Assembly: GCA_905181835.1 (NCBI GenBank)
Contig: CAJIZF010000006.1
Span: 101,805 to 165,804 of the forward strand
Length of the DNA stretch: 64,000 nucleotides
From: an uncultured Flavobacteriaceae bacterium
GTDB taxonomy: Bacteria; Bacteroidota; Bacteroidia; Flavobacteriales; Flavobacteriaceae
Direction: 5' to 3'
In this document: positions 4,407 through 62,849 of the stretch, one piece after another
Position numbering within the stretch: position 1 is the first letter of the stretch
Layout of the letters: each line of letters starts with the position of its first letter
Translations under genes and position numbers: made by a program
Notes under the pieces: model-generated
Seen by the model: the letters and a program-made list of their open reading frames with translations, nothing else
The model's database searches: none
What the model was told of the DNA's origin: nothing

Positions 4407-7400
4407 TTGAAATATATTATTATTTTTTGTAATTTTATAAGTTCAACTATTTATCCAATGTGTTCATTTAAATTTAAACAATCTGAAATAGTTTTATCAA
4501 TATTCCGTAAAAAAACATTAAGCTTTTTTCTTTTTTTAGTACCTCTTTTTTGTTTTTGTCAGAATATTGAACTTTATAAACAGTATAATGGAAAGTACGA
4601 TTATAAAGCTTTTGGAAATACGCTAAATATATCTCCAAACTCTTGTAATATTCAAACCCAGAGTAGTGCTGTCTTTAGCCTTTCTCCCTCACAAAATTTA
4701 ATATCTGCATACTTATATTGGTCTGGATCTGGGGGGCTTATAAATGACACTTTCCCAGGCGACTACCAGGTGAGTTTAAATGGGATTACTGTATCTGCAG
4801 AAAGAACTTTTATCAATAACTTACAGGATAATAAATTTTACGGAGCTTTTGCTGAAGTTACTGGCATATTAAATAATTTTGGAAATGGCACTTACACTGT
4901 ATCTAATTTTGATTTGACTGGTAATATCTTTCCAGGATCTCCCTATTGTAACAATGAAACTGATTTTGGAGGATGGACAATAACAGTGGTTTATCAAGAT
5001 AACTCGTTACCTCTAAATCAAGTAAATATATTTGATGGATTTGAGTCTGTGTCTCAATTTAATAATAACTTAACTATTCAACTCACTACGCTCAATGTTA
5101 TGGACAATATGGGTGCTAAAATTGGATTTTTAGCATGGGAAGGAGATGCTAGTCTTGCTGTTAATGAAACCTTAAGGATTAATGGAAACATTTTGAGTAA
5201 TCCTCCTTTAAACCCTCAAACTAATGCATTTAATGGAACTAATAGTTTTACTAATTCAAGTCAACTTTACAATATGGATGTTGATTTCTATAGTATTGAA
5301 AATTATATCCAAACTGGTGACGTAAGTGCAACTATATCTTTGACATCTGGTCAGGATTATATAATTGTAAATAATATAATAACTGTTTTAAATTCGGAGC
5401 TACCAGATGCTACTGTAAGCTTCGAAAATATAGAAATTATTTGTAATAATTTAGTCGAAATTAACTACACTGTTTTCAATATTAATAGTACCGGTATTCT
5501 CCCTGCAGGTACTCCAATTAAATTCTATTTAGAAGGAAATCAAATTGGGCAAGCTCTTACAAACAATAACTTACCAATTGATGGTCAGGAAACTGGTACA
5601 ATATCACTGACCATACCTACTGACACTGTTCCAGATCCCTTTACGATTAAAGTAGTCGTTGATGATGACGGTGGTGGGATAAGTACCGTTACAGAAATCA
5701 ATGAGGATAATAATGAATTTCAACAAATTATAAGTTTAGCAGAAGTTGTACTAAATTTAACATTGGATCCAGATATACTAATAACTAACGATGACGCTAT
5801 TTGTGAAGGTGAAGATCAAGTTATTGGCATCAATTCCCTCACACCTATTGAAGCAGCTGGGGCAAATTCAACCTATCAATGGTTTTTTAATGGTACTTTA
5901 ATTCCAGGGGAAACTGGCGAACAATTAACTGTTACTCAAGTAGGAACCTATCAGCTTGAAGTTACCTATGAAGGCTGCAACGTAACTGACGATATTCTAG
6001 TTGAGTTTATTATTAATCCTATTGCAGGAACTCCAACTCCTTTAATTATATGTGACCAAACTCCAAATGATGGAATAGCCGACTTTAACTTAACCGAAGC
6101 TGATACCGATATTATCAATGGACAGACAAATAATTTTGTAACCTATCATGAAACACTAGCTCAAGCCGAAGCAGGAACCAGACCCTTTAGTAAGTCCATA
6201 CACCAATACAGTTCCTAACATACAAACCATATTTGCAAGATTAGAAGAGGACGTTCTGGGTTGTTACGATGTAACTCAATTAGTACTTCAAGTAGATCCG
6301 GCACCCTCAATTACAGAGCCTATAAGTGATTATCAACTGTGTGATAACGATGGTGATGGCTCTGAAACTTTTGACTTAACTTCTAAATATGAAGAGATTG
6401 TAAATACACTAACCGATATTACACTTACCTATTACAATACGGAGGCCGATGCGAATGCAGATACAAATGCTATCGCAACACCTTCTACCTACATTAGTAG
6501 TGGTGCAGAAACGATTTGGGTAAGCGCTATTAATACAGAGGGGTGTACTAGTGTAGGTTTTTTTAATTTAATTATTGACACAGTACCTTTATTTACCGAG
6601 GTTCCTTTATTTCAAATCTGTGACGATACTACACCTGATGGATTTACAGAATTTGATTTAGATAGTCTGTATCCAACTATTGTCGCTGGGGCCTCTAACC
6701 TTACTGTTAGCTATTACTTAACTGAGGAAGATGCTGAAGCAGGTGCAGTGTCACCTTTATCAAGTCCTTACACAAATACTATAAACCCTGAACTTATTTG
6801 GGCACGTGTCGAAGATGATATAACTGGATGCTATGGAACCTTTGTAATTGAACTAAATGTGATTTCACCACTTGCAGGAACTCCAACTCCATTAATTGAA
6901 TGTGACCAAACTCCAAATGATGGAATAGCCGACTTTAACTTAACCGAAGCTGATACCGATATAATCAATGGACAGACAAATAATTTTGTAACCTATCATG
7001 AAACACTAGCTCAAGCCGAAGCAGGAACAGATGCTTTAGTAAGCCCGTACACCAATACAGTTCCTAACATACAAACCATATTTGCAAGATTAGAAGAGGA
7101 CGTTCTAGGTTGTTACGATGTAACTCAATTAGTACTTCAAGTAGATCCGGCACCCTCAATTACAGAGCCTATAAGTGATTATCAACTGTGTGATAACGAT
7201 GGTGATGGCTCTGAAACTTTTGACTTAACTTCTAAATATGATGAGATTGTAAATACACTAACCGATATTACACTTACCTATTACAATACGGAGGCCGATG
7301 CGAATGCAGATACAAATGCTATCGCAACACCTTCTACCTACATTAGTAGTGGTGCAGAAACGATTTGGGTAAGCGCTATTAATACAGAGGGGTGTACTAG

Positions 7401-9269: not shown

Positions 9270-10823
9270 TTGAGATATATTTATGGTTTTGTTCTAATTT
9301 TCACCTTACTTTTATGGAGTTCCTGTCGTAAAGATTTTGAATCTGTTCCTAGTTCAGGGAATTTAGAGTTTTCACAAGACACCATATTTTTAGATACAAT
9401 TTTCACTAATATTGGATCCAGTACTCGAACACTTAAAGTTTATAATCGCAGTAGCGAAGATATAAATATCCCTAACCTGCAATTATCAGGCGGAGAATCT
9501 TCAAGTTATCGTTTAAATGTTGATGGTATTCCGGGCAAAATATTTCAAGATATTAATATTTTAGCTAATGACAGTATTTTTGTTTTTATTGAAACTACCA
9601 TTGATATCGATAATTTTCCAAATCCAGACAACTCATATTTATACGAAGACAGAATTGTATTTGACTCAGGCACCAATACTCAAGATGTTAACTTAATTAC
9701 TTTAGTAAAAGATGCTGTTTTTCTTTTTCCTGAACAAAGTTCAGATGGAACTGTAGAGACTTTAAATCTTGGTACCGAAGATGAACCTATTTTAATAGAA
9801 GGTTTTTATTTAAACGATGATCAACTAAATTTTACCAATGAAAAGCCATATGTTATTTATGGGTATGCAGCGGTAGCACCAAACAAAACGTTAATAGTTG
9901 AACCTGGAGCTAGAATTCATTTCCATAGAGATAGTGGTATTTTAGTTGCAAATACTGCTTCCATGAAATCAATTGGATTGGCCAGTAGCGACTCAGAGTC
10001 GATGGAAAATCAAATTATATTTGAAGGTGATCGATTGGAACCATCATTTGCTGATGTACCAGGTCAATGGGGTACCATATGGCTAACTGCGGGCAGTACT
10101 AATCATGAATTTAGTTATACAACTATTAAAAATTCAATAGTAGGAATACTGATGGATAGTAATGATGGAGATCGTACGTTATCATTAAAAAATGTTGAAA
10201 TATACAACACCTCGAATGTCGGCTTGTTAGCACGTACTGGCGACATCTATGGTGAAAATCTAATCATAAATAATAGTGGCCAATCATCGTTATCATGTAG
10301 CTTAGGGGGAAAATATAATTTTATTCATTCAACATTTGTAAATTATTGGACTAATAACTTCAGAATATTTCCTGCAGTTTCGATAGATAACGTTTTACAG
10401 ATTGGTGAAAATGAATTTATTACCTCAGATTTAATCGAAGCAAATTTTATAAATTGTATTGTATACGGTAATGAAGCAAGAGAATTAATATTCACTCAAA
10501 GTCAAGAGGCTGCTTTTAACTTTAATTTTAAAAATAGCTTAATACGATTTGATGATCCTAACGGAAATTTTGAAGATGATTTGAATTATGATTTTCTAAA
10601 TGAAAGTCTTTACCTCAATACTGTTAGGAATCAGAATCCCTCGTTTTTGAATACTACACTGAATGATTTTAATATAGAAACCGATGTATCTGGTGCCGAC
10701 GGAATAGGAGATCCATTAGATGCATTAACAGTTCCACTTGACGGAAATGGAACTAGTAGAAATGTTTCAGCTCCCGATGCTGGAGCCTACGAAAGTATTA
10801 TTTATCCTGATGAAGGAACATAA
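9270..10823 (+). CDS. Lipoprotein, probable right-handed beta-helix surface protein
   Basis: Signal peptide with lipobox LLLWSSC; YVIYGYAAVAPNKTLIVEPGARIHFHRDSGILVA and repeated beta-helix-like segments. Confidence 0.75.
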   Translation: MRYIYGFVLIFTLLLWSSCRKDFESVPSSGNLEFSQDTIFLDTIFTNIGSSTRTLKVYNRSSEDINIPNLQLSGGESSSYRLNVDGIPGKIFQDINILANDSIFVFIETTIDIDNFPNPDNSYLYEDRIVFDSGTNTQDVNLITLVKDAVFLFPEQSSDGTVETLNLGTEDEPILIEGFYLNDDQLNFTNEKPYVIYGYAAVAPNKTLIVEPGARIHFHRDSGILVANTASMKSIGLASSDSESMENQIIFEGDRLEPSFADVPGQWGTIWLTAGSTNHEFSYTTIKNSIVGILMDSNDGDRTLSLKNVEIYNTSNVGLLARTGDIYGENLIINNSGQSSLSCSLGGKYNFIHSTFVNYWTNNFRIFPAVSIDNVLQIGENEFITSDLIEANFINCIVYGNEARELIFTQSQEAAFNFNFKNSLIRFDDPNGNFEDDLNYDFLNESLYLNTVRNQNPSFLNTTLNDFNIETDVSGADGIGDPLDALTVPLDGNGTSRNVSAPDAGAYESIIYPDEGT

Positions 10824-10852
10824 AAAAAGCCTTTTCATTGAAAAGGCTTTTT
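10824..10852. terminator. Bidirectional intrinsic terminator between convergent genes
   Basis: aaaaagcctttt-cattg-aaaaggcttttt perfect 12-bp stem. Confidence 0.85.
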
Positions 10853-10873
10853 ATTAAAAAATGATATTTTATA

Positions 10874-11068
10874 TTAAAGAACTTTCACATTTACTGCGTT
10901 CATTCCTTTTTTACCTTCTTTTAATTCAAATTCAACTTTGTCCTCTTCACGAATATCTTCATCGATTAATCCAGAGATGTGAACAAAATGTTCTGTGTTT
11001 GTGTCATCTTCAGTAATAAAACCATATCCTTTGGAAGCATTGAAGAATTTAACTGTACCTGTTTGCAT
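10874..11068 (-). CDS. Cold shock protein (CspA family)
   Basis: MQTGTVKFFNASKGYGFITEDD cold-shock domain. Confidence 0.97.
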   Translation of the reverse strand: MQTGTVKFFNASKGYGFITEDDTNTEHFVHISGLIDEDIREEDKVEFELKEGKKGMNAVNVKVL

Positions 11069-59275: not shown

Positions 59276-59364
59276 GCCGTCTATAGAATAATAGACGCCT
59301 TTAATCCAACCTCTGGCGAAAATCGTGGATGTTGTTTTAAAAATCATATTAACAAACAAATAAA
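59276..59364 (+). promoter_or_regulatory. Structured 5' leader of rplS, candidate ribosomal protein L19 leader
   Basis: Perfect hairpin cgtctat-agaata-atagacg (59278-59297) right after the promoter, then atcca...tggat pairing. Confidence 0.55.
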
Positions 59365-59715
59365 ATGGAAGAGTTAGTGAAATTTGTTCAAGACGAGTTT
59401 GTAACAAAAAAAGAGTTCCCACAATTTGGTGCTGGTGATACCATCACGGTATATTACGAAATTCGTGAGGGTGAAAAAACAAGAACTCAGTTTTTTAAGG
59501 GAGTTGTAATCCAAGTTAAAGGAACTGGTACCTCTCAAACTTTTACAATAAGAAAAATGTCAGGTACAATTGGAGTAGAAAGAATTTTCCCAGTTAACCT
59601 ACCTGCTTTACAGAAAATTGAAATCAATAAAAAAGGTAGTGTAAGAAGAAAGCGTATCTACTATTTTAGAGGTCTTACTGGTAAAAAAGCAAGAATTAAA
59701 GAAAAAAGAATGTAG
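59365..59715 (+). CDS. rplS: 50S ribosomal protein L19
   Basis: FGAGDTITVYYEIREGEKTRTQFFKGVVIQVKGTG, GVERIFPVNLP. Confidence 0.98.
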   Translation: MEELVKFVQDEFVTKKEFPQFGAGDTITVYYEIREGEKTRTQFFKGVVIQVKGTGTSQTFTIRKMSGTIGVERIFPVNLPALQKIEINKKGSVRRKRIYYFRGLTGKKARIKEKRM

Positions 59716-59742
59716 AAGACAGAATTACTATATTTTATCAAA

Positions 59743-59767
59743 GCAACTCTCCTGAGTTGCTTTTTTT
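59743..59767 (+). terminator. Intrinsic terminator of rplS
   Basis: gcaactc-tcct-gagttgc followed by T7. Confidence 0.88.
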
Positions 59768-59825
59768 ATTAACAATAGTTAATAAACTAAGTTCATATAT
59801 CGTTAATATCTAATGAGTTGAAAAA

Positions 59826-59856
59826 TTTGTATATCTCAATTTGTATTTTATATTTG
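59826..59856 (+). promoter_or_regulatory. Promoter of candidate ncRNA: TTTG (59826-59829)-N19-TATATTTG (59849-59856)
   Basis: Matches the Bacteroidota -33/-7 consensus (TTTG / TAnnTTTG). Confidence 0.65.
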
Positions 59857-59861
59857 ATTAT

Positions 59862-60506
59862 CAAAACGAGGTAACAGTAACAATCGTTTTAAATTAAAGT
59901 AACGTTCTTTAAAATTTTTTTTAATCAAATTTATATTAACGAAACCATTGAAAAATGTATTGGTAATGTAAATTTAGGCAAATAGCTGATCTACATAGAG
60001 CAATCTAAAAAAATCAGACCGAAAGCATAACAAATCTTGAAATAGAGATGAGTTGTAACTTTCGAGAAACAAATTTCGCTTTTAACCTTTTAGGTTAAAA
60101 GAGTTCTCGTCTTTTGATAAATTTCAAGAGATCTAGATCAAGAAACGAAATATAGAGGCCTGTAAGAAGTCCTTAACTAGTTTAAGGATCAATTTATTTG
60201 AAAATGGTTTTACTAAATTCAATTAAGTAGCACAGACAACCGATAATATGGACACAAGAAATTTGATAGCTTTTAGCACAAAAATCTTTAATTAGAATAC
60301 GTGTGAAGATTAAAAAAAGGAGTTCATCCTTACAAATTTTCTGTAGCCTAGCCACAGTAAAATTTTGCTGGGAGACTCGTTTGAAACAAATCACGACTGC
60401 AAGGGTTTAATAAACTTGCTTTAAATTGTAATGATTAGTCGGCAAAGGTATGTTTCACAAGAAGCCATATCAATGTAGAAATACGATGATATGGCTTTTC
60501 TTGTTT
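59862..60506 (+). ncRNA. Candidate structured non-coding RNA (~640 nt), unassigned family
   Basis: Promoter at 5' end, many perfect nested/tandem hairpins (listed in findings), terminator-like hairpin at 3' end, no plausible ORF; lies between the rplS terminator and the icd promoter. Confidence 0.6.
60457..60506 (+). terminator. Terminator-like hairpin at end of candidate ncRNA
   Basis: aagccatatca (60462-60472) / tgatatggctt (60487-60497), 11-bp perfect stem followed by ttcttgttt. Confidence 0.6.
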
Positions 60507-60561
60507 ATATTAAACAATAATTTTATAACACTTTCAGCTTTTAAAAGCCACCGCAAATTTG

Positions 60562-60569
60562 TAAATTTG
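60562..60569 (+). promoter_or_regulatory. -7 promoter box TAAATTTG of icd
   Basis: TAnnTTTG, 58 bp before ATG; no clear -33 TTG. Confidence 0.5.
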
Positions 60570-60572
60570 TAG

Positions 60573-62849
<2,277 letters not shown>

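Follow-up and report, generated by a model that had tools for sequence, protein, structure and literature searches.

Probable autonomous gene for a large structured non-coding RNA between rplS and icd in Flavobacteriaceae

Layout of the rplS-icd gap and comparison with known RNA families

In the window, the term used here for the whole 64-kb stretch of marine flavobacterial DNA analysed, rplS is followed by icd, encoding a monomeric isocitrate dehydrogenase, and the two genes are separated by 911 bp (59716-60626). The first-pass annotation had singled out this gap as the largest in the window, which was confirmed for the spaces between ORFs of at least 100 aa; the next largest, 529 bp at 6219-6747, gave no Rfam match. 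The element in the gap had also been described as flanked by the rplS terminator and a separate icd promoter, and both were found (Table 1), the -7 element of the icd promoter being conserved as TATATTTG in the family alignment. The L19-Flavobacteria leader is, like the gap RNA, a structured RNA of the same locus, but it is a 29-nt cis leader that precedes rplS, is unrelated to the gap RNA and belongs to the neighbour rather than to the RNA gene.

Table 1. Features in and around the rplS-icd gap (positions in the window unless a contig is given)
Feature	Position	Strand	Basis or remark
Window	G000:C6:101805-165804		64 kb
L19-Flavobacteria ribosomal protein leader (RF03130)	59307-59334	+	Rfam match above gathering score, 44.4 bits
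rplS	59365-59715
rplS intrinsic terminator, upstream boundary	59740-59763	+	terminator scan: 10 pairs, then T-run
Operator-like block: inverted TTATTAAC/GTTAATAA + GTTCATA + GTTAATA, phased 13 and 11 bp	59766-59808	+
Predicted promoter of the RNA gene: -33 TTTG, N19, -7 TATATTTG	59826-59856	+	sequence
ncRNA gene, ~645 nt	59862-60506	+	start inferred from promoter, end from terminator
P1, 5' hairpin AAAACGA/TCGTTTT	59863-59890	+	98 % paired in genus-level relatives
P2, hairpin TTAAAG-TAACGTT-CTTTAA with almost invariant CGTTCTTTA	59894-59912	+	family alignment, k-mers
P3, 5' arm TTTTTTTTAATC of long-range helix	59915-59926	+	12-bp complement to 60308-60319
Central hairpin CTTTTAACC/GGTTAAAAG, lineage-specific central domain	60079-60101	+	68 % paired in relatives, 23 double changes
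P3, 3' arm GATTAAAAAAAG	60308-60319	+
3' domain matched by covariance model R1	60380-60501	+	50.3 bits, E = 5.8e-8 in 64 kb
3' closing helix TGAAACA (60382-60388)/TGTTTCA (60451-60457)	60382-60457	+
Terminator hairpin AAGCCATATCA/TGATATGGCTT and U-rich tail	60462-60504	+	sequence nearly invariant in the family
Separate icd promoter, -7 element TAAATTTG	60562-60569	+	sequence
icd, monomeric isocitrate dehydrogenase gene	60627-62849

The RNA had been credited with a promoter of its own, and by its letters this is present as described: TTTG at 59826-59829 is separated by a 19-nt spacer from TATATTTG at 59849-59856, the spacing of the primary promoters of Bacteroidetes. In most homologs a -7 element of the form TAnnTT(T/A)G lies approximately 135-150 nt past the rplS stop codon. 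Further upstream, three GTTNATA boxes (59778, 59791 and 59802) lie in the operator-like block. Of the 170 loci sorted as RNA-bearing, 147 have one or more such boxes, with spacings of 13 bp (87 times) and 11 bp (69 times), and the boxes were absent from 29 of the 34 loci that lack the RNA or come from other families. The phased boxes are probably a binding site for an unidentified regulator. The proposed 5' end near 59862 and 3' end near 60506 agree with the conserved promoter and terminator; the ends are conserved among the homologs, as is the structure. The gap RNA is present in a single copy in its own genome.

A match to a known Rfam family had been named as the result that would make this RNA a described one. 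Whether the gathering thresholds of Rfam 15 (4227 families) or relaxed ones were applied, the window gap gave no match; the L19 leader was the only match in the window, and no match above threshold was obtained in the gaps of seven homologous loci. In one homologous region a sub-threshold match to Flavo-1 RNA (RF01705, 38 bits against a cut-off of 42) was seen upstream of rplS (L145:2777-2848).

The size and complexity of the gap RNA are similar to those of RNase P RNA or tmRNA, which would suit a divergent version of one of the housekeeping RNAs (tmRNA, RNase P, SRP or 6S RNA). The first-pass annotation had seen no hallmark of the first three, and each of them was found elsewhere in the genome. 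The gap matched tmRNA (RF00023, with its tRNA-like ends) neither in Rfam nor in ARAGORN, and the tmRNA of this genome lies at G000:C1:478665-479064. There was no covariance-model match to RNase P RNA (RF00010), which was located at G000:C6:84035-84349 with 178.5 bits, and none to SRP RNA (RF00169), located at G000:C1:562479-562577. Both tmRNA and RNase P RNA resemble the gap RNA as free-standing structured RNA genes of similar size but they occupy other loci of the genome and the gap RNA matches neither. The 6S-Flavo RNA (RF01685) is likewise a flavobacterial free-standing structured ncRNA, but its model has ~108 positions compared with ~300-650 nt for the gap RNA, and it has its own separate locus (G000:C3:208851-208964 in this genome). 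The gap gave no match to it, and the consensus fold of the gap RNA is multi-domain rather than a rod with a central bubble. The idea that the gap RNA replaces 6S RNA was rejected, as 6S-Flavo was found at another locus in 31 of 31 genomes tested, with and without the gap RNA. With all four RNAs matched elsewhere in the genome and no Rfam match in the window gap or in the homologs, a diverged housekeeping RNA is effectively refuted and keeps next to no weight.

Conserved fold and covariation

The segment 59862-60506 was predicted to fold at -153.8 kcal/mol, in comparison to -114.6 ± 6.9 kcal/mol for shuffled sequences (z = -5.7, none of 20 shuffles as good). It comprises 90 perfect complementary arms of at least 6 bp, whereas mononucleotide shuffles average 58.5 (range 45-75).

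In a DNA search, congeners carried this sequence after rplS with 69-95 % identity, while farther relatives matched at the two ends only. Regions anchored on rplS were compared using one genome per genus plus named species. The rplS-icd synteny recurs in the sampled regions, with a gap of usually 550-900 bp, and three parts are conserved nearly throughout: the promoter, the 5' hairpin TAAAG-TAACGTT-CTTTA and the 3' terminator AAGCCATRTCA...TGATATGGCTTTT. Box and terminator are separated by roughly 220-310, 320-410 or 540-610 nt, and of these size classes the longest includes the window RNA. Since a joint sequence alignment of all classes fails to align the 3' helix, each class was treated separately, and a search for helices served to compare them.

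The middle size class was represented by the A2 alignment of 40 homologs. RNAalifold predicted 87 pairs in it, 54 of them with a compensatory change, and visual inspection added three helices: the P2 hairpin at the 5' end, 173-176/196-199 and the closing helix at the 3' end. The resulting structure has 18 helices and 103 pairs, with 94.6 % of cells paired. Its 434 double-change cells compare with 131.5 ± 13 over 500 shuffles, and sliding the partners by 1-3 columns gave 61-83. The structure was derived partly from the alignment on which it was counted and is thereby favoured over the slid controls; neither the result with the shuffles nor the number of distinct pair types depends on this bias alone. 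The check suggested in the first-pass annotation, conservation and covariation in related rplS-icd gaps, thus gave a strongly positive answer on both counts. Besides the 5' hairpin, the 3' closing helix and the terminator, the A2 fold contains the long-range helix ATTGTTTTTT/AAGAAAAACAAT, several hairpins in its centre and one whose loop region, GTCAATACATTTTGAAA, is near-invariant.

P1 stays a hairpin across genera despite differing arm sequences, and the 5' segment has a mean z of -2.2 over 112 loci. P2 corresponds to helix 1 of A2 (96.9 % paired) and is family-wide; CGTTCTTTA on its 3' arm is nearly invariant whereas the 5' arm drifts via G-U changes. The genus-level alignment alone supports P3 only weakly (70 % paired versus 64 % when slid, in an AT-rich setting), so the support for this helix in the window comes from its counterpart in class A, which is 97.3 % paired. 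The closing helix, of at least 7 bp, was found in 95 of 109 homologs with 63 different 5' arms, mostly 80-105 nt upstream of the terminator. The terminator hairpin is helix 17 of A2, 100 % paired with 10 of its 13 pairs never varying, and is single copy in its own genome. An alignment of the window class (14 members) gave 124 predicted pairs, 92 % paired, 39 of them with double changes. Structure in the central domain (~59930-60300) is weakly supported, and this is the least certain part of the RNA.

The fold drawn in the first-pass annotation was partly right. All ten of its complementary arms exist in the letters, but relatives firmly support four of them, support two in part, leave one doubtful and do not conserve three. 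The four are 59863/59884 (98 % paired), 60394/60437 and 60399/60415 inside the closing helix (60394-60398/60437-60441 and 60399-60403/60415-60419, 100 % paired each, with double changes) and the terminal hairpin (100 %). The hairpin 60079/60093 (68 % paired, 23 double changes) and 60063/60104 (65 %) were kept in part, and 60317/60327 remained doubtful at 78 % versus 59 % in the control. Pairing did not rise above the control for the supposed long-range arm 60035/60121 (39 %), for 60283/60306 (38 %) or for 60170/60182 (49 % versus 37 %). Three helices had been missed altogether, namely the hairpin at 59894-59912 and the pairings 59915-59926/60308-60319 and 60382-60388/60451-60457.

The covarying helices also bear on the possibility that the gap is a DNA element such as a replication origin. 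In about a dozen of the complete genomes checked, dnaA and rplS are 5-14 kb apart; in this genome dnaA (window ~48375) is at 11.5 kb from the RNA, and the upstream boxes TTATNAACA are one base off the DnaA box TTATNCACA. However, in two complete genomes (G112 and G279) the minimum of the cumulative GC skew is ~1.1-1.3 Mb away from the RNA locus, and a DNA element would leave the 18 covarying helices unexplained. The GC-skew minimum in these two genomes is near neither dnaA nor the RNA; dnaA lies there near the skew maximum, not the minimum, and far from the RNA. The distant skew minimum and the covarying helices effectively refute an origin for the RNA body, a reading left with virtually no chance, and the upstream boxes could still bind a replication protein.

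Distribution and independence from the neighbouring genes

A covariance model of the 3' domain, R1, was built from other genera without any sequence from the genus of the window, and it nevertheless recognized the window RNA (Table 1). When 70 genera were each represented by an rplS-anchored region, it matched 60 of these, and 40 of the 50 outside its training set (the number of training members is our own tally). R1 also matched weakly on both strands at window positions 10800-10945 (25.6 and 20.5 bits), where a bidirectional terminator hairpin is the probable cause. A genome-wide first look with R1 was insensitive, with 9 of 248 genomes matched, so presence was judged from the rplS-anchored loci.

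Among 395 genomes of the class, five carry the terminator motif, and each of these belongs to Flavobacteriaceae; the regions after rplS in other families of the order gave no convincing match. Cultured genera that carry the RNA include Olleya, Winogradskyella, Polaribacter and Aequorivita. The RNA is missing, with gaps of ~160-290 bp, from Nonlabens, Psychroflexus, several other genera and the genus g142 (probably Flavobacterium, to judge from the size of the genus), and in the genus g143 it is present in one genome and absent from another. As judged from these sequences the family is restricted to Flavobacteriaceae and lost in some genera, and the losses in several genera show that the RNA is not essential throughout Flavobacteriaceae.

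The usual position of the RNA, directly between rplS and icd, would suit a long 5' leader or riboswitch-like element controlling icd, or a 3' element of rplS. Against this, the RNA has a terminator hairpin of its own at the 3' end, and a separate, conserved promoter serves icd. Many loci have a gene other than icd after the RNA, in some cases on the opposite strand; the products of such genes, named by eye from translations, are a secreted-looking protein, an ABC ATPase and a pentapeptide-like protein. In the genus g147 the RNA adjoins icd while rplS is on another contig (G309) or ~0.8 Mb away (G243), and in other genera icd is adjacent to rplS without the RNA. The reading as a leader of icd is strongly disfavoured, and the cis element as a whole was allowed only a slim chance.

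Two further arrangements were observed downstream of the RNA. Often the RNA is separated from icd or other genes by a gene whose 190-aa product resembles a pentapeptide-repeat protein (L127, L142, L149, L160, L072 and L102). In L007 an insert of ~700 bp with a DinB/mycothiol-transferase-like gene is placed between the first RNA terminator and icd, before a second copy of the 3' arm of the terminator (TGATATGGCTTTTCTTG), as if the 3' end of the RNA were the insertion site.

The few short ORFs in the window could be cited for a reading as a dual-function RNA or as the mRNA of a small peptide. Nevertheless, the median length of the longest sense ORF is 33 aa versus 32 aa in shuffled sequences, and many indels are not multiples of three. 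This reading was given very little credence. Given the ORF lengths, the frame-breaking indels and the independence of the RNA from icd/rplS adjacency, the element is neither an icd leader nor a coding region.

Possible nature of the RNA and its meaning for Flavobacteriaceae

The marks of an autonomous ncRNA gene that can be read from sequence are present, comprising a promoter and a terminator of its own (both recognized from sequence alone), a covarying structure and the lack of a coding signal. Conservation, structure, promoter and terminator signals and independence from both neighbours were demonstrated by computation. The initial proposal of a ~640-nt structured ncRNA of unknown family is upheld by the gene-level signals, the covariation and the absence of an Rfam match, and was only partly right in the details of the fold. 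We consider it likely, with good confidence, that the rplS-icd gap holds an autonomous, trans-acting structured ncRNA gene, whose transcription, action in trans, partners and role are inferred. This confidence refers mainly to the autonomous structured RNA gene; the particle or assembly proposed below is a judgement from its anatomy and not a result.

In the proposed mode of action, transcription would start near 59862 from a sigma-dependent promoter preceded by the conserved multi-box operator, and an intrinsic terminator would stop it near 60506, upstream of the promoter of icd. The RNA would then fold into a 5' module of two hairpins, a long-range helix that links the 5' and 3' parts and encloses a lineage-variable central domain, and a conserved 3' domain to which the terminator hairpin is attached. 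The conserved ends may constitute the functional core and the middle a variable extension. Most likely the folded RNA works in trans, either at the core of an RNA-protein particle or in an assembly made of RNA only, function and partners being inferred; action in trans rests on the exclusion of the neighbours, without a demonstrated target. Both the nearly invariant terminator arms and CGUUCUUUA have the appearance of contact sites.

A simpler possibility is an antisense sRNA whose folded body displays one or two conserved single-stranded segments (e.g. CGUUCUUUA in the P2 region) that pair with mRNAs. The 3' arm CGTTCTTTA is nearly invariant in comparison to its drifting partner, as a second role for the 3' arm would require, and regulatory sRNAs are known in Flavobacteriaceae (PMC9723704). 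On the other hand, the gap RNA is far longer than most such sRNAs, and its many covarying helices and long-range closure are more like those of a structural RNA. A particle or assembly was preferred to a simple antisense RNA because of the size, the long-range closure, the many covarying helices and the conserved unpaired segments, and the antisense reading is regarded as unlikely, without being negligible.

Among known large RNAs, OLE, GOLLD and ROOL resemble the gap RNA in being several hundred nt long, non-coding and elaborately structured with covariation, with poorly understood functions (PMC12286853). They form RNA-only oligomers (PMC12286853), and ROOL is reported, in work cited in that source, to be abundant and non-essential in one Ligilactobacillus salivarius strain. 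The gap RNA differs from them in its host group and in its chromosomal rplS-icd locus, as opposed to the phage/prophage location of ROOL, and the Rfam models of the three gave no match in the window gap or the seven homologous loci. By analogy an RNA-only oligomer is possible. In 98 of 134 homologs the P2 loop AACGTT (window 59900-59906) is self-complementary, so that it could join two RNA molecules by pairing. The variant loops show no preference for palindromes, only 8 of 36 being palindromic, and the kissing-loop dimer is thus unsupported by covariation. It can be entertained only tentatively that the RNA is the founding member of a new, Flavobacteriaceae-specific class of large bacterial RNA machine of the rank of OLE, GOLLD and ROOL, a self-standing structural or catalytic RNA that may form a homodimer through its AACGUU loop.

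The transcriptome study of Flavobacterium psychrophilum reported 85 new RNAs including Rfp18, and its main text mentions neither rplS nor icd (PMC9723704). Rfp18 is, like the gap RNA, a conserved flavobacterial ncRNA with a strong predicted structure, and pairing with mRNAs via conserved single-stranded segments was proposed for it; it is described there as genus-conserved, and the main text gives no locus or sequence (PMC9723704). In the genus g142 the rplS-icd gaps are 235-290 bp where icd is adjacent, and there was no model match. No description of the gap RNA was found in the open-licence literature; subscription papers and most preprints were outside this scope, so a prior description cannot be excluded. 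The RNA family is apparently undescribed and without a detectable relative. What is new is the family, as large structured ncRNAs are broadly known and the mechanism may be of a known type.

To our knowledge, very few classes of bacterial ncRNA are both so large and so strongly structured, and most of these have unknown functions. Flavobacteriaceae form a major part of marine, freshwater and soil communities. The RNA is present in most of their sampled genera and yet is not in Rfam, which means that flavobacterial genome annotations miss a conserved gene. Its single copy, its fixed position and its losses in some genera make deletion, pull-down and comparisons across natural losses straightforward.
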